Positions 17,076-44,608 of a DNA stretch of 64,000 bases are shown here, piece after piece; the first letter of the stretch is position 1; each line of letters opens with the position of its first letter. The stretch covers positions 236,001 through 300,000 of the forward strand of contig JAHLKD010000073.1 in the NCBI GenBank assembly GCA_025526935.1, written 5' to 3'. The DNA is from Cladochytrium replicatum. Taxonomy: Eukaryota; Chytridiomycota; Chytridiomycetes; Cladochytriales; Cladochytriaceae. The position numbers and the translations under genes are program-made. The notes beneath the pieces were generated by a model that was not told the DNA's origin, ran no database searches, and worked only from the letters and a program-made list of their open reading frames with translations.

Positions 17076-18274
17076 TTACTCTTTCAAGTCAGCAGGGAAT
17101 GTGTAGCCGTTCATCGCTGCGAACGGGAACTTGTTGCCGTTAGTAGTCTGGGACCAACTGTCACGGAACTACAAAAGTACTCATAAGCTACGTTTCGAAA
17201 TTGTATATGTGTAACTTACAAAATCGGTGGCCAGGTGGTTGACACGACCTTTAGCGGCGGAGAACTGGCTTGAAGTACCAAGCTGGTAGATCCGGCTGAC
17301 GTAGCCCTTGGCCTTCACTTCATCTGCGATTGAAGGCCAAGCGCTGTTGCTGACATCCATGTTGAAGAAAACAGTGTGGCCAGACTGCTTGCTGGAGACT
17401 TCAGCTACGCTGCCTGCCTCGGGCATCAAGTAAACCTGAAGTTGGTATCACTGAAGTGTTTTAAATCAGTGCACGCCCTTGCAGTCTTACCAATGGATCC
17501 TGGCCATCAACGTACTTGGCGGAGCGGTAGGTATTCTGGGCGCCCTCCCTTCCAGTGAAAACAAAGATGAATTTCCCCTTAAGTTCGGAAAGCAAGGGCC
17601 ATTTTGTTTGAGCCACGGATGTCATGAGGTTGTTCTTGGACCATGTTGCGCTAGATCCCAAGCGCTTCAGCATATCGGTGGGGGCGTACACCATCGACCT
17701 GGACATTTTCTCCAGGATACGGTCATCGACGTTCTGGGGAGTGTGGTCCGCGTCGAACTCGTCCTTCAGGTCGAAGAAACTAACGACGACTTCGTGGTTG
17801 GGGTTCGAGTTGTGGAACTTGACAAGGGAGTCGAGCCAGTCGTTGAGCCTAAAAAAAACCGCAATTGGATGAACAGTCTCCACGCAAAGCGTCGTTTCTA
17901 TTTACCGGTCGGTGTTGGTAATAGCGAAATCGTAGATTTCATGCCAAATGTACCTTTGAACAAAGCATATGTAGTATCATTTGAATGATAAAACCTCCGA
18001 ATTGGGGTGTTTACCAGTTGTTCTTCACAGCCGATGCCAAGGGCTTTGAAGTGTGGAGATCTGCCTCAAGCGAGCGCGAATTGTAAACAGATAGCTGATC
18101 ATAGATGGGCTCCCATCGCTGGTAAGAGTTGTGGTTCGACTTGGCGGTAATGAAGTTGAAGCGAATGTCGCTGTATGATGTGATTGCAGTCTGACGGCGA
18201 ACGGGAACGGGAGCAGCCAAACCACTTGAGAAGGTGGCTAGCGTACAGACGAGTAGCACCAAGAGCCCCTTCAT
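17076..18274 (-). CDS. Secreted PI-PLC-like phosphodiesterase
   Basis: Five exons (18274–18015, 17953–17906, 17848–17491, 17435–17220, 17168–17076) join in phase to 324 residues. The ATG at 18274 gives a signal peptide (MKGLLVLLVCTLATFSSGLA). A PLC-like TIM-barrel pattern follows: FNFITAKSNHNSYQRW with the HN pair, then SRSLEADLHTSK (first metal/acid-base region), HEIYDFAI, VVVSFFDLKDEFD and KGKFIFVFTGREG. These fit the secreted, Ca2+-dependent PI-PLC-like phosphodiesterases of fungi and bacteria, which cleave phosphoinositide or similar phosphodiester bonds. No GPI signal or membrane segment is visible after the signal peptide. Upstream in-frame non-ATG extension was rejected because the signal peptide fixes the start. 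The exact substrate cannot be told. Confidence 0.8.
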
Positions 18275-18568: not shown

Positions 18569-20654
18569 TTAGTCTCTGTAAGTGTCTCCTTGAAATCCTT
18601 CTGATATCCTCCTTGGGGGCTTCGGGGAGCTTGGAATATATCTTCTTCTGTCCGTAGGCACAAGTTGATACGGGGATAAGTAGGGACCTGAATTGCCCAT
18701 GCTAGGTTCGCCTCGCCCGTTCCCCAGTTGATAAGGGGAAGTTGTAAGTAACGGACTTTCTAAACTGATCTTCGCACCACTGCGATCCAGGGTCTGACTA
18801 CTACTCTGTCCGTTTCCGTTAAGCTCGAAGGAAACCAGCTTTTCATCTATCACAATGTTTGAGTTGCCCCGAACCGATCTATCTGAATGCAGGAAGCTCC
18901 CCCGACGAGATGGATTAAAAACATGGCCAGAGGCATGCGGGACATAGGTTAAAGCACTATTAATGCCCAAAGTCGAAATCGTGTGGGGCTGGCGAAGAAG
19001 CTCTGGTTGAACGCTCTCCGAGCGTTCTATTGGGCGATTGCTCGTGAGGTCAACTGACATATCTTCGACATCCGACATTGAACATTCGTTCCAGTCTGCC
19101 CATAGTTTTACAAAACTCTCCACGGAAGATTCGAGCAGCAGGATAAGGCTCCAGATGGTCCTCTCAAACGCCGTTCGTGCACCGCGCACCTCGCTCAGTA
19201 TGTGCACCGTAATTGCAGCTACCCAGAGGATCACGGTCACTGCGAGGACAAAGTTGTACGTTGCCAGAAGCATTTGAAGCGGGTTATTTTTCTCGGTGTA
19301 GCGCATCATTTTTGGGTGCAGGTCGTCGGCGTACTTTTCAGACCTGTTGAACCTAACACCGATGTTTCCCCGTTTTCCAGAGCCAGTTTGGTCGGAATTC
19401 GGTGTGAAGAAGTAGGAAGCAGCACGTTGGGCAGATTGGAGATCCCGTAGCATACGCTTTATGGGACGGTTAAACTGTATCGCACTAATTACAATCATCT
19501 AAATAGAGCTATCAGAACTTACTTCAGTAGGTTTCTGGCTCTGCTTACCGTTAAGGGATACATCACAAGCCCAATGGAAGACATCACAATCTCTAGGGGA
19601 GTTCCGAGCCTTTGGCGCAGAGCAATACTTGCGATGATAAATCCCGCGAAAGATAAACTTAATGCCGAATAAGCAAGCAAATGCTTCATCCGCTCACGGA
19701 GATCGACTTTTGGAACCAAATGTCTATCGGTGATAAGAATCATAAGGACGAAGGGTAATATTCCTTTGAGAGGGACGTCCCTCTGGAAAAAAAAGCGTGA
19801 GGACACGCAGAATAAACAGAGAGTACTTACAAGCTCAAAAGCATCTTTGGACGTAATAACGGTTGTTGTAGCCAAGGGACCAATAATCAGCATCGCTGAA
19901 GAAACACTGCATGTACCTATAAGGAATAGAGAAACAATGCACAGAAGGATATGTCTGGTTATGCCCTTCTGGAGCATAATTTGCCCGTAGCTCAGCACGC
20001 CAACACGTCCTTTCCTAGGCAATGATATTGAAGTTTCCACTTTGGTTGCTTTGCTTGGTTGATGGTCGACTGATTCCATGGATGGAAGTTCTGTTTCAGT
20101 ACTCAGCTGAGGAAGACGGTCAGATTGAGGAGCGGAGGGACGCCCCATGATGCGTGAGGAACTGATGGAATCAACCTTGGCTTGATATTCGTTGCCATAA
20201 TTATCCAGTTTATCAATGTTGTTTGAAGAAGGGGGTGATAAGATAAAAGGAAAGCTAATATCCTGATCTCCAACATTTTCTGAAGACGAAGAGCTTTTAG
20301 ACGTTATTGAAATGCACACATTTGGTGGGGCAAGTGGAGCAGGGCCATTATTTGATCTTCCCGAATGTCTTCTCCCATCAGTTGACTTCTGACAGAATGA
20401 AGGAACAACTGATGGTCGGTGAGCTCGAGGCGGAAGATCGCTCTTCTGCTTTCGTTTGTACGACTTGGAGCTTTCATGGGATCTGATTGATCGAACAAGA
20501 GATGTTACATTGATAATCAGGCTGTGAAATACAATGGTAAGGTTGACACCCAGCAGCCTAAGGGACAAACATTAGCAAAGTGAGAAGGATGATCGTGACA
20601 CAATCACCAGCGTTCGAGAGGTGGATTGATCTGGAGACCAGCTTGTGTGTTCAT
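18569..20654 (-). CDS. Putative seven-helix membrane protein, copy A (DRH motif)
   Basis: Four exons (20654–20608, 20557–19831, 19782–19549, 19498–18569) join in phase to 645 residues. I do not recognise the family. Hydrophobic segments in order: LLGVNLTIVFHSLIINV (TM1), a hydrophilic Ser/Arg/Pro-rich insert of about 150 residues, HILLCIVSLFLIGTCSV (TM2), GILPFVLMILI directly followed by TDRH (TM3), LLAYSALSLSFAGFIIASI (TM4), IVMSSIGLVMYPLT–MIVISAI across an intron (TM5), LLATYNFVLAVTVILWVAAI (TM6) and IWSLILLLESSVESFV (TM7). A Ser-rich tail of about 160 residues follows. Order and the D-R-H after TM3 are GPCR-like, with N terminus outside and the insert and tail inside. It is a paralogue of the next gene, 204 bp upstream, with matching intron positions. 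Confidence 0.7.
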
Positions 20655-20857
20655 TTTTGGACGATCAAAAAATAGTCAGCAACATATGCAACCTGGCCAC
20701 AACCATCTGATTGGGCTTTCAATCAGATGGGATGCAATTCTTAAACGGTAGAAAATTTTCAATGTTATTGGAGAACCACAAAGAATGGACTTATTCGAAA
20801 AAAGGGTAGTTTCAAGCTCCGATTTTAGCTTCTTCTCCGCCGAATAAAGGTGGTTCC

Positions 20858-23013
20858 TTATCGCCCACTAAATGCACTAAAAGATGTTCGGCGGTGAATG
20901 CGTCTATCGCCATCTGGCTTATTGTTTGCAGCAGCAGCAGATGCCAATGCTTGAAGAGCCTGCGTGCTCGTTGGACTTGCGATACTGTTCCTGCGTCCAA
21001 CAAATGGGTCGGATTCATCAGCAACCGGACGATCCGGAACTAATCGACGTTCCAAGATCCCACTCGGAGGTCCACCGACGCTGCTTCGACGTGCTCTCGT
21101 GGGCCCCACTTCGATTGCTACGCTCGTTTCGCGTGGCTGGTCTGAGGGTTTTGCGAAAGCAAGCTTTGACGTCGTGAACGATTCAGAAGGTTGCGACATT
21201 CCTGAGGGTTGTGAAGTTGAAACTCTGGGAGGAAAAGAGAAGTACGATGAGACCTCGAACTTTCGACTGGAGGATGGCGATTCTTTGCGTGCTTTTCTTG
21301 ATCCATCCGAGGAGCTTGATTGGTTACTTTCTTCGTCCGAATCACCGAGGTTGCCCGAACTGGAGATGCCACGTTCAGCACTGGGAGACATAGTCACAGA
21401 GGAAAGCACATTGGATGGAATTTGCGTGAGGAATTCCTTCTTGTTCACATTCGCAACTGAGAACCCATTTGAAGAGGTTGAAGTTTTAGATGAGCCGACA
21501 CTCGGATCCTCAAGTCCATCAACCAAGCAAGTTATCGACGTAACCCTGTTCAGTTCGTCAGCATAACGGGACCAAGAACTCCATTGTTGCACAATGTTTT
21601 CAATTGATGATTCAAGAAGAAATATGAGCGAAAGAAGGGCATTCCCGATGCCGCTGCCAAATTGAGTTTCCGATCGCACAATCGTGATGATTATTTGTAA
21701 GATCCATAACGTAACGCTTAACCCAAGGCAGTGATTGTAGGTCCAAAGTAGAGTCTTTGCGCGGTGTAGATTGACTTTTCTGTAAACAGCCTGCAACAAA
21801 ATGTTTGGTTGATTGAGCACGATAGCAAGCAGAAAGCGACCTACGTCTCGTTCGGTACTCTTTCCGTCTCGACTAACACGCGATGCTGAATATTCTTCCG
21901 AGCTCACACTAAAGCTGGTTTCACTCCTATTGGTTGTCCTTCTACTTCTTTCCGAGCGCACAGACTCAATCCTGTTTGAATCGAGGGCATCTTTGCTCAT
22001 TTCACGTAGCATGGTTCGGAGCGTCGGAGTAAAAATGAGGCAATTGACAATTGTGGCCTTGATTTATAACATTAGCACACTTCGCAAAATTTCGTGTCTG
22101 TTTCTCACCAGCAACGGATGTATGGCAAGTGTAGCAACTTTGATCACAAGTTCCTCTTTGATCACAAATAGCCGAACGAGCCAATGAGCAACTGTTACAC
22201 TGACAACAAAAGGCAATAGCAACAGCAATGAACCAATTCGCTTTTTCTTGTCAGTGAGAACGGAACAGTATCTGTCGATTGCTAGCGAAGTTACACTTGC
22301 CATAATAATTGCACCGTCAATTGCTTGAACCTAATTTGCAAATAAAATGTTTATTGAGCTGAATTGGGTGCTAAACGTTCCCAGATTCTCACCACAGTTG
22401 TATCTACATCAATGGATGACCCGAACACGTTAGCATTTGTTACTAATGAGTTGCAGACAACGATTATAGAAGAGGAGAGGAGGAGAAGCACGCTGCGCAC
22501 GGTCGGTGGCTTCAAGTTTCTGATGGATGGTTTGGAACCGAGGACAGATTCTCCCAGCCCACTGACTCGCCGAGCCGCAGATTTGTTTGCAACGGCTGCA
22601 GAAGCGGACGAGCTTGCAGAGCTACCTCTCTCACTGACCGGTGCGAGTGCTCCACGCCGGGCTGGAGAGGGAGTTAAGGCCGTCGGTTGTATCTCGTGAG
22701 CTTGACTCTTCTGATCTATGTGAGCGCTCGCAGCTGCCGAACAGATTGCACGCCTCTCTAAGGAAGCCGACACACATGAATCTCTTCTTTCTAACACTGG
22801 CGAGCCTCTTATCGAGGAATGGGCTCTAGATCGTTGTCTGAGGTGATCCATCCATATCTTGTCCTGTTTTCTCCGAAGATTCCCAATCCCAGTGCTCCGT
22901 AGTACATTTCCAATGCTGAGTATGAAAGAATATAACACAGCGCCAAAACTCACACCTGTGAGCCTGGAAATAACTATATCAGCTTACACTTGGCGTTTGC
23001 ACAACGTTCGCAT
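20858..23013 (-). CDS. Putative seven-helix membrane protein, copy B (DRY motif)
   Basis: Exon 1 (23013–22988), exon 2 (22963–22393) and exon 3 (22330–22109) are in phase; the remaining coding part (about 22055–20858) holds a 54-nt phase-0 intron near 21850. The product has roughly 590 residues. Paralogy with copy A is visible at TM1 (GVSFGAVLYSFILSIGNVLRS against GVNLTIVFHSLIINVTSLVRS, same intron phase before it) and at the TM5 junction (PTLRTMLREM against RPIKRMLRDL). TM2 is SVLLLLSSSIIVVCNSL, TM3 runs into SLAIDRYCSVL, TM4 is IGSLLLLLPFVVSVTVAHWL, TM6 is LGLSVTLWILQIIITIV and TM7 is LLSLIFLLESSIENIV. The ICL1-like insert and the tail are Ser-rich. The sequence around DRY looks like the TM3–ICL2–TM4 junction of rhodopsin-type receptors. 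Exon 1 is the weakest part of the model. Confidence 0.65.
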
Positions 23014-23169
23014 TATGTCTACCACTGATCTAGCCGAGCTGTCCTTTCCAGATCATCCATTCGCTACGTTTCACAGCAAAAGCTTCCGAAAAGTCATGTG
23101 TGTCCGCTGTACGTCAAAGCCAAATGTTTTGATTGATGCCAATCAGACTTGTGAGTGATCAATCCCGAA

Positions 23170-40213: not shown

Positions 40214-43200
40214 GGTGAAACTAAAGGATGGGAGGTGTTGCTGTGATTACGGATTGAAGGTCCGAGGTGGGGCAATACAAGAGAAGAAGAAGTGGCAGTG
40301 CGGAGGGGTTGCGGTAGAGGAGGCGCAAGGGGCCTACCATACAGGGTTATATGAGGGGGAGCGGTAGGGTGGCAGTGTGATTGGGAAAATATACACCGGA
40401 ATGGTGTTGGCAATTATTAGATGGTTGAAAAATTGTGAGTCTGTGCTGGCTCTTGTGCAGAGAGGAACGTGGTCACGTGTGTATTGATTTATGGCAGGAC
40501 GGCACATTTGTGTAGAGGGCACGTGTGACAAAAACACCTACATATTGGACAGGATGATACAGGCAGGAGGGGACCACTATGGCATTAGTGTATAACATAC
40601 TGAAAAGTAGTCCAGGCATATGACGGCTTTTTCGCACAAAATTGAACAGCCCCTATGTTACCTCTTTTTTTGTTTGTGTTAATGAGAAATTTAACAAAAC
40701 GTGTCTTAGCTTGCCACATCCTCTTTTTTGGGATGCACAAGAACGTGTGTTTGATTTATCATGTGTCTTCACGCCACACAAAAACGTCTGTCGGATTTAA
40801 ACTTCTGTATATTAAAAAATGTCACCATGGACAACTCTGAATCATGATGCTAGGTCTTATCAATCACAAAAGTGCATGACTTCACACCACACAGCCTCAT
40901 GCAAAATTGCCCGCACCGTCAGAGAAGTTGCCTCGATCGCTGAACTGGATGCTCAAAAGATCTGATAAAATGGTTCAGATTAAAGATGTGTTTAGATGTC
41001 ACATACTACAGATAGGTGGTCACATGTATAATTAGTTTCCGGATTAAGAACAAACACAAAGTTGCTCATATAGGAGTTTTTGTGCAGTGGCTTAAAACAG
41101 CAAGCTCAAAACATCAAACAGGCTGAGCTATTTTCTTATAGACACATCCAATTTTCCGTCACAAACACCCCCCATTTCCATAACAGGATTTCTGTGCATA
41201 AAAGCCGCCATACAGGCATGTCTGTGCTCCTCACCCATGCCAAAACATCTCATCTTCACTTTGTCCAAACTGATCCTTGACTTGGGCTCTGCTGCTGACT
41301 ATCACAGTTACACATGTCACCCCATTGCCTACTGCCTGTGATATTTGTTATCGGACATCTTCAAATGCTCACTTAATTGAAATCAAAAATCTTATCTCTC
41401 CACACAGCAATGCAATGCAAATGAGATGTACATTGAGGCGATTGTCGATGATAGGGATGATGATGGCAGAATCAATGAAGATATTAATTGGTCGAAGAAA
41501 ACGACAACAACTTTGCATCACCATGGACGCTGAAAGTTCAGCAAGTGATAATATTGATATATTAAAGGAGAGCCTGATGGATGTTTAATTCTGTGTATCT
41601 TTGATGGGTTCGATCATTGGTTGCTAGTGTTGGACTAGACAGCTTACTGGACTCTATTATAGTCACTTTAAACAACTACAAAACACACTACGAAATAGCA
41701 GGTAGACTGGAGACATCCAGGAGTTCTCAATGCAGGATGCAGAGGGACATGTTGGTTATAATTGTGAAGCTGGTAACAATCATTTACTCTGGAAGAATAA
41801 TATGTAATTATGATGGTGAGAACATGTGCTTAAGTGTCTTCTATGATGTTACCAAGTATAGTAAGGTGCACCACGGGTGAGACTGCGCAGGTGTTGAGTT
41901 ATTGTTTTGAGTTGTTTTGCTGATTCTTAGGGGATGCAGGAATTGCAGTGGAGGTTTTTTTCTGACTTGGTGAAGTGGTTTATTGTTGGTGTCTCTTTTT
42001 GAGGTAAGGTGCAATGTGAGGTCATTCCAGCATTGAAATTGAAATCTGGCTGTGTTCCCCTCCACTATCAATTCAAAAGCGTTTCTGAGACCTGCAATAT
42101 CTGGTGGATGGGGCCGAAAAGCATGCAGATAGTAATGACAATGTCAGTAGAAGCTCTTCCAAGGCAAGAATGACATTGACTTCGTCGAGCGTCCACGATT
42201 CAGGTGGGGTTTTGCAGGTAAATTAACTCTTAGCACTCATGGTTCTTAAGAGGGAACTGGCGGTGTGTTAAAAACTAGCATATCAGACTGTTCGCTATAT
42301 GGGTTATCCTTTGGGTTGTCTTTTTTCTCTTTAATCTGAGAGTTTTCTTGTCAATCCCTCTTCGTTCTTATTTATGGACTTGTATTTCATGTAATTATTT
42401 CCATGTTTGGCAGGTTCTGTGTAGAGTGATGGTGGCATTTAGTGGGGAATGTGGTGTGGCTTGGTCCTTGGAGTTGATGTGACCAATGTCTTTGACCACA
42501 GCATTCCCTGGTTGCCTGACCAGCTTGGGTGTAGTGTACAGCCTGTCTGATTATTAGGCATATACACACACCTGGGAGAACAGGTACTGGGCCAAGAGAC
42601 GGAACCTGGAGCTGTTGTGCTAGCTACAGTACAGCTAAAAACACCCTACCGCTGCCAGGAGAAGCCCTTGGTTTTTAACACGGTGCACACAAAACAGAGT
42701 TGTAAAGGAATGGGATTGCTGGGAATTCTGTTGGGATTGGTTCTTTGGGAGAAAGTGACAAGGTGTCAATGTCATGAAGATGCTATCGGGGGTGAATCGT
42801 TCAAGAATTGACTGAACGAGGTTCTGGATCCTGACAAGTACAAGTGGGCTGTTGATATTGTAAGGGCTGATGCTGTTGATCATAGTTTTATTGAAATTTT
42901 GGCTACTAAGGTGCGCGAGAAGAAAGAAAGTGATTCCACAAAGGAGGGAGATCTCTACCTTGTTAAAAGGGTCAATCAATCAGCGTCCTGCTCTTTGGAG
43001 GACATGCTGGATGCATGAAGAGATCTGACGATGTGTGTTGGATTATGAATAAACTCTTTTTCTACAGTCACTTTAACAACCATATACAGAACACATCGTA
43101 ACATTTCAAAGAAATGTTACATGTTACTTCAGTCCAAGAGTATTCTTTGTTCCCATGTAGGAACGAAGACCTCATTGTCTGATTGAAGCACTGTTTAGTG

Positions 43201-44608
43201 ATCACCAGTAATATTTTCTTATTGGGAACAGCAGTTTAGTAATCAAGCCATACTACTATATAAGAGTATGCAACAATTATTGAATGGCGTGTATGAGTCT
43301 CAGGATCTACTCTACTCAATCACATTCGAACCGAGTTTTCCCTACTTATACTCTGCCAATTTACCACAGTATTCTACATAACAATTTTCGATGTTCTATC
43401 AATCGTCATTGAGGATCAAACAACAATCACGACCTAGACATCATCCAATCATTTTCTCAGCTGAGTATGGATGAAGCTGAAACCTTTCAGTGGAGAGTCT
43501 CTCCACGCGAGGTCTGCTTTAAGGACGCCAAGGCTTTTGCCAAATCGAAGGGATGCATTCGACATCTGTACCGGTATGCGATCACAGAACCCCAACTTGC
43601 TTTTGGTCAACTACCTCAAATTCCGGCTCCAGTACAAGCTCCGCCTGCGGGAGCTGATCAGGCTGACACATTCCAGCTACAAGTCACAGCAGGTCAATAA
43701 CAACAGTGCGTCAGAGAACAGTTGGGCTCAACAGCAGTACGACAGTGACATGACTACATGACAATCAGACAACCTAAACAACAGGCGAAGAGCATCCTCA
43801 AGGAATGTTTTCCCCTTTACTACGATTTGGTAGAATCACTCGATCATGCATACAAACTAGTTCAGGGAATCCGGGCTATCTTCGCTAGAGACACTCAGAT
43901 GACATTTCATTTTAACAGCTGATCCAATAATGGGAATGATTCAATGGGCAAAATTTCCAAAGTTTGCCTGGCGTGGATCAAGAAATCTGAGCGGAAGCGT
44001 CCAATCAAAGCTTCCTTCAACTTTCCCAGTTTTCCAAATCCTGAACACGCTCATGCCTCCACTGTTCATCATGACCGTCCCACCAGCGTGATGCCACAGA
44101 ATTATCTTTGAACCGCAGCACCATAGCTTGAGCTTGCATTGGTTCTGTCCAAGTTTGACTAATTGCAACTTTACTCACCGCTTTGAAAAACTTCTCTAAC
44201 TCATTTGAACTGCATCATCAGCCTGGCCTGAAGAGGAAGTCCCAGCAAAAAGAGGTGTGTTGTTCAGAGCATTCTGGTCCAACTTCTCTGATTGTTTGGT
44301 GAGAAGCCCAGTTTGTTGGACTGCTGAAACAATTTCCAGTCCAAACTAACCTGCTTGAGCAATACAGCCGATTCGGCACGTTCTTCTAAGCTCTCGAGAC
44401 AATGTGATGCTTGAATACAGAGACAGAGCTATCGAGACATTGTGATGCTTGAAAACAGATACAGAGATCCAAATTCAACTCCAAGTAATTTTAGGGACAT
44501 ATGTATGAGTTGATATTATGTTCGAGCAGTTTATTGAGCAGTAAAAATAGGTTGAACAATATAACCTTAGCTCTTCCCACAGCTCTTCCCACAGCTCATT
44601 CTCCTGCT
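40214..44608. other. 4.4-kb AT-rich gene-poor region
   Basis: No frame here shows a recognisable domain or convincing exon chain. A frame at 43471–43761 ends in a basic helix-like stretch (NYLKFRLQYKLRLRELIRLT) and could be debris of a mobile element, but nothing diagnostic (DDE, reverse transcriptase, terminal repeats) was found. Near 44397–44466 a unit with GACATTGTGATGCTTGAA or close variant occurs twice about 44 bp apart. CACGTG hexamers near 40475 and 40520 lie upstream of the secreted-protein gene. Composition changes towards more A+T than in the flanking genes. Confidence 0.5.

Follow-up and report, generated by a model that had tools for sequence, protein, structure and literature searches.

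Two adjacent genes of the chytrid fungus Cladochytrium replicatum, here called A and B, encode together with a third gene, C, found elsewhere in the same genome, a family of paralogous proteins that are predicted to cross the membrane seven times. A and B lie in a stretch of 64,000 nucleotides (positions 236,001 to 300,000 of contig JAHLKD010000073.1, assembly GCA_025526935.1), which we refer to as the window. We observed a shared gene structure, paralogy, seven hydrophobic segments in each protein, a bias of charged residues across the membrane, conserved motifs, and a low ratio of nonsynonymous to synonymous substitution rates (dN/dS) for A. The most likely reading, drawn from topology and motifs alone and in our judgement evenly poised between right and wrong, is that A, B and C form an orphan plasma-membrane family of the seven-transmembrane (7TM) type that would work like G-protein-coupled receptors (GPCRs). 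To an earlier note on this DNA, which had described A and B, the present analysis adds gene C, a broken copy of each of the three genes and a test for selection acting on A.

Gene structure and paralogy of A, B and C

A and B follow one another in head-to-tail order, both on the minus strand (Table 1), the tandem arrangement that the earlier note had described and that the spliced models, both free of stops on translation, bear out. The three introns of A measure 50, 48 and 50 nucleotides and are of the GT-AG type, and the four of B measure 59, 62, 51 and 54 nucleotides. Intron 4 of B (21844-21791), which is in frame and holds no stop codon, is uncertain and may be retained, giving a protein of 676 residues. 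The coordinates proposed earlier were correct except for the start of B, given as 23013, which we place at 23060 because an exon 1 (23060-23023) that ends with a Trp codon and is followed by a 59-nucleotide intron agrees with A and C, whose first exons end with the same codon and in the same phase. A start at 23013 would imply an intron of about 24 nucleotides (counted by eye); the start, the Trp codon and the GT donor are legible by eye in the alignment with a broken duplicate of B, described below.

Judged by their sequences, A, B and C are real paralogues. By BLASTP, A and B match each other at E 7e-14 without the low-complexity filter and at E 3.5e-6 with it, and with the filter C matches A at E 3.1e-14 and B at E 8e-6. 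When the proteins were shuffled in a way that preserves the local hydrophobic pattern, none of 500 shuffles reached the real score for any of the pairs A-B, A-C and B-C. Furthermore, introns 1-3 occupy identical aligned positions in the three genes, in phases 2, 0 and 0, the evidence being weaker at introns 2 and 3, where the acceptors of C were picked to fit A and B; the acceptor of C intron 2, CCGGAG, is unusual. Similarity scores, shuffles and the common positions and phases of introns 1-3 thus uphold the kinship that had been claimed for A and B. C itself came from a six-frame search of the genome (50.5 Mb in 198 contigs) with single-protein queries, which took up the best candidates and so sets a lower bound: beyond A and B there are at least C, intact on contig C99 with an open spliced frame of 564 residues, a C-related fragment on contig C62 and an A-related fragment on contig C25.

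Predicted topology, conserved motifs and a possible mechanism

In each of the three proteins, seven hydrophobic peaks that do not overlap rise above 0.9 (19-residue hydropathy), in agreement with the seven segments counted earlier in A and B. The seventh-best peak reaches 1.24-1.37 and the eighth 0.66-0.85, helix 7 being the weakest helix in every member; the helix count rests on hydropathy, and the helix limits were placed by hand. In all three members the charges favour an N terminus outside and a C terminus inside, because near-membrane Lys and Arg residues are in excess on the inner side (outside/inside counts of 8/20 in A, 4/24 in B and 7/23 in C). These counts support the prediction, already made for A and B, that the loop between helices 1 and 2, the Asp-Arg motif and the tail all face the cytosol.

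On the predicted outer side the proteins offer little, with N termini of 12-27 residues and loops of 4-21 residues. The segment between helices 1 and 2 had been described as about 150 Ser/Arg-rich residues; this insert is real, its length being 182 residues in A, 135 in B and 123 in C, with 21-28% Ser/Thr in the three proteins, as against the few residues that make up inner loop 1 in class A (rhodopsin-class) GPCRs. The inner loop between helices 5 and 6 has 68 residues in A, 75 in B and 100 in C, and the C-terminal tail has 179, 243 and 116, respectively.

Directly after helix 3, where D-R-H in A and D-R-Y in B had been pointed out, the motif D-R-[HYF] is present in three of three members, C having D-R-F. 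The alignment of helices 3-5, in which B is 22% and C 27% identical to A, has 13 invariant columns, including this Asp-Arg pair and a Pro in helix 5. Another 15 invariant columns fall in helices 6-7 and include Leu-Trp, a Tyr-Asn at the start of helix 6, and Glu-x-Ser-x-Glu-x-x-Val-x-x-Trp, the E-x-S-x-E part of which lies in the second half of helix 7. Asp-Arg, Tyr-Asn and Glu-x-Ser-x-Glu are near predicted inner helix ends, which in a GPCR would be the side that binds the G protein. Arg-Arg-x-Ser/Thr, a phosphorylation site of the protein kinase A (PKA) type and a motif that we picked after inspection, occurs 11 times in the cytosolic segments compared with a mean of 3.0 in composition shuffles, and 1 of 10,000 shuffles reached 11. 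Arg-Arg alone is also enriched in the inner segments (25 versus 13), and R-x-x-S/T shows no enrichment there (30 versus 28.6, P 0.41).

We infer a location at the cell surface, a ligand, coupling to a G protein and phosphorylation, which could act together as follows. The ligand pocket would lie among the helices, since the N terminus and the three outer loops are so short, and the signal would therefore likely be a small molecule. Once bound, the ligand would make helices 3, 6 and 7 rearrange at their inner ends, at the D-R-aromatic, Y-N and E-x-S-x-E sites, and the rearranged ends would activate one of the G-alpha proteins of the genome. Such receptors would have partners, because G-alpha genes are present: matches over the cut-off form nine gene clusters (our own grouping), with one marginal case on contig C120. 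The long Ser/Arg-rich loop 1 and the tail might be phosphorylated, plausibly by PKA at the R-R-x-S sites, and phosphorylation could tune the receptor, desensitise it or recruit partners.

Table 1. Coordinates in the window of genes A and B, their predicted first cytosolic loops and their conserved motifs
Feature	Position	Strand	Details
Gene A	18569..20654	minus	645 aa; exons 20654-20608, 20557-19831, 19782-19549, 19498-18569; open spliced frame
Gene B	20858..23060	minus	658 aa; exons 23060-23023, 22963-22393, 22330-22109, 22057-21845, 21790-20858; open spliced frame
Predicted cytosolic loop 1 of A	19951..20496	minus	182 aa, 23% Ser/Thr, 26 Lys+Arg
Predicted cytosolic loop 1 of B	22495..22899	minus	135 aa, 21% Ser/Thr, 24 Lys+Arg
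D-R-H of A (helix 3, cytosolic end)	19720..19728	minus	D-R invariant in A, B and C
D-R-Y of B (helix 3, cytosolic end)	22268..22276	minus	D-R invariant in A, B and C
E-S-S-V-E, helix 7 of A	19118..19132	minus	family motif E-x-S-x-E-x-x-V-x-x-W
E-S-S-I-E, helix 7 of B	21599..21613	minus	family motif E-x-S-x-E-x-x-V-x-x-W

Known receptor families and alternative readings

Several results weigh against a receptor-like function. Neither A, B nor C matched any Pfam GPCR family at E up to 10, and no Pfam family passed its cut-off with any of them. A profile of the three members, a profile of helices 3-5 and exon 3 of B found no GPCR among solved structures, and no credible solved-structure match was obtained for the family. 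Two partial, unspliced AlphaFold models, uninformative about the fold, had low confidence (mean predicted local distance difference test scores of 52 and 58), and fold searches with them returned a few GPCR rows at noise level and no significant match. Motifs typical of class A, namely NPxxY, CWxP (with its Pro in helix 6), D2.50 and N1.50, are not conserved in the family, and there is no outer Cys pair, since none of the three proteins has a Cys in helix 3 or in the first two outer loops. Furthermore, a 7TM gene taken from this genome as a control (L001, contig C152) was recognised as a GPCR, whereas A, B and C were not. One exon of this control passed the cut-offs for Frizzled, 7tm_2, 7tm_1 (narrowly, with 31.3 against 30.5 bits) and Dicty_CAR, and among the PDB matches listed for it 31 of 31 were GPCRs, with E values from 2.3e-6 to 4. 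Because this exon matched GPCRs, Pfam and PDB searches can, at the level of sequence, pick up diverged receptors encoded here, but they do not reach A, B and C. The control is of the same seven-helix receptor type and comes from the same genome; unlike A, B and C, its main exon is over four GPCR family cut-offs, and it has no significant similarity to them (best E 0.077).

A possible but somewhat less than likely alternative is a seven-helix protein that is not a receptor, such as a transporter, a lipid-handling protein or a scaffold, in which the D-R-aromatic motif would have another origin and the disordered loops would bind cytosolic partners. The missing sequence homology of A, B and C to GPCRs agrees with this explanation, and the two conserved Glu residues of helix 7 would also suit the handling of ions or substrates. 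A has sub-threshold matches to DUF3429 (E 0.0063, 17.2 bits, cut-off 39.1) and OST3_OST6 (E 0.1, 12.5 bits, cut-off 27); however, B and C match neither family at E up to 10, and no transporter family is over its cut-off in three of three members. Membrane sequences can, moreover, give an E of about 0.006 by chance, since a rhodopsin exon of the same genome scores MFS_1 at E 0.0063. Membership of DUF3429 was rejected, with A below the Pfam cut-off and B and C without a match. An opsin was likewise discarded: the retinal-binding Lys inside helix 7 is a hallmark of opsins, and A, B and C have no Lys in the core of that helix.

That the family is a highly diverged but true member of class A, related by descent to animal receptors, we consider improbable. 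The end of helix 3 in B, S-L-A-I-D-R-Y, is near to class A, and the Pro in helix 5 would fit as well, but two of seven class A landmarks are kept, the Arg after helix 3 and this Pro (P5.50). The Trp of helix 4 is not conserved in all three, B alone having a Trp in helix 4 and a G-N in helix 1, and 7tm_1 gives no match to any of the three at E up to 10, yet its cut-off was narrowly passed by the control. Because the Arg and the Pro are the sole conserved landmarks out of seven, we do not place the family in class A, and an assignment to it was rejected. Membership of the rhodopsin class, with whose receptors the earlier note had compared the position of the motif, is consequently not supported, as neither sequence nor profile searches found a GPCR and the control did match. 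A, B and C resemble class A GPCRs in the D-R-aromatic motif closing helix 3, the Pro in helix 5 and the Ser-rich tail, and differ from them in the long inner loop 1, in having no detectable homology and in lacking NPxxY, CWxP, D2.50 and the outer Cys pair. They also share the seven helices and the predicted outside N terminus with class A receptors, including those of chytrids, from which one study reports rhodopsin-, glutamate- and Frizzled-type receptors, the rhodopsin-class genes carrying ERY and NPXXX motifs (PMC3251606); the presence of these rhodopsin-class genes is in line with a class A origin.

Very unlikely is a gustatory-receptor-like 7TM ion channel of the kind described from the chytrid Spizellomyces: seven helices and inner loops longer than outer ones would suit it and such proteins are known from chytrids, but the selection criteria given in PMC7746228 are an intracellular N terminus, opposite to the one that the charges favour here, and about 350-500 residues, compared with 564-658 and long tails in A, B and C.

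If A, B and C do work like GPCRs, they might be the first known representatives of a GPCR class of zoosporic fungi that no classification has yet covered, with an inner loop 1 that is very large and regulated, sensing small molecules and steering zoospores or rhizoids; this fuller proposal is tentative and we think it rather unlikely. Receptors of the proposed kind would place a large regulatory segment in the first inner loop, and not just in the third or in the tail. Like fungal GPCR classes 1-17 (PMC12842992), A, B and C have seven helices with the N terminus predicted outside and the C terminus inside; unlike those classes they have no Pfam-A family over its cut-off, and where that classification relies on Pfam it would probably miss them. 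Fungi still have many seven-helix families without a class: the same 2025 work left 141,666 fungal proteins with seven helices, grouped in 1969 clusters, unclassified, the ten largest clusters were annotated, and the largest was studied as candidate GPCRs, with consensus predictions all from Agaricomycotina (PMC12842992). The present family may belong to one of the remaining clusters. A receptor-like family free of Pfam domains would escape Pfam-based surveys of fungal GPCRs, and it would enlarge the list of candidates for chemical sensing by zoospores and for fungal signalling generally. Chytrid zoospores can swim to chemical cues such as N-acetylglucosamine, by mechanisms called poorly understood in a 2025 paper on Rhizoclosmatium, in the main text of which a word search gave no hit for 'receptor' (PMC12115818). 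The words 'chytrid', 'early-diverging' and 'Neocallimastig' do not occur in a 2026 review of fungal GPCRs (PMC13308352), and no description of this family appeared among the papers listed by the literature searches.

Broken copies, selection and genomic setting

A, B and C each have one broken copy inside duplicated segments. A segment of contig C25 duplicates this window and one of contig C62 duplicates the C locus on C99, the longer aligned stretches having mostly 67-81% DNA identity. The C25 duplicate (L033, G000:C25:451500-461000) corresponds to 12.3-25.6 kb of the window, with 80.5% DNA identity in the Ada2-like region and 77% in the POLD3-like region. In it, the copy of A has stops and an insertion and gives no match past residue 333, and of the copy of B only the exon 1 region and a piece of the tail are left, interrupted by stops, the membrane part being lost. 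Two fragments in opposite orientations are left of the C copy on C62. Because the C25/window and C99/C62 pairs show one pattern, the duplicates with their broken receptor-like genes suggest a large-scale duplication or a hybrid origin, followed by gene loss. The insertion in the A copy (L033:5097-6101) is possibly a mobile element; stretches of it recur at 41624-43318 of the window with 76-83% identity.

Comparison of A with its broken copy gave a dN/dS of 0.18 (NG86) or 0.26 (YN00) over 182 aligned codons of A's 645, the alignable stretches being used and the rest left out, including exon 3 beyond its stop, a choice that may bias the ratio downward. The two differ at 41, 27 and 82 sites at codon positions 1, 2 and 3, respectively. 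As the broken copy may be free to drift, the ratio still suggests that A has been retained by selection, and it is consistent with purifying selection. Two exons of the Ada2-like neighbour gave 0.03-0.05 and 0.09 (the second by NG86 only).

The neighbours of A and B are this Ada2-like gene, with SWIRM and Myb domains, a PI-PLC-type gene and a probable POLD3/Cdc27 gene (a match below the cut-off), and they point to no pathway. The PI-PLC-type gene (PF16670, E 5.7e-8) lies directly downstream of A, at 17464-17901 on the minus strand. About 2 kb from gene C there is a TIR-domain gene (TIR_2, E 4.7e-15; L007:694-1350, minus strand), and its stretch has a counterpart in the C62 duplicate at 79% DNA identity. 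Two neighbouring clusters of G-alpha matches are found on each of these contigs (C62:242.5-246.2 kb and C99:44.7-48.4 kb), 30-38 kb from the C relic and from gene C, respectively.

Elsewhere in the genome, a locus on contig C58 (L028, G000:C58:21500-31499) has two microbial-rhodopsin matches over the cut-off on opposite strands, at most 10 kb from guanylyl cyclase exons, of which one passes the cut-off and the other falls short of it. The arrangement resembles the rhodopsin-guanylyl cyclases of chytrids, known in Rhizoclosmatium globosum (PMC7655827), and makes a zoosporic fungus plausible as the source, in agreement with the earlier note; by eye the C58 locus may hold three genes of this kind.

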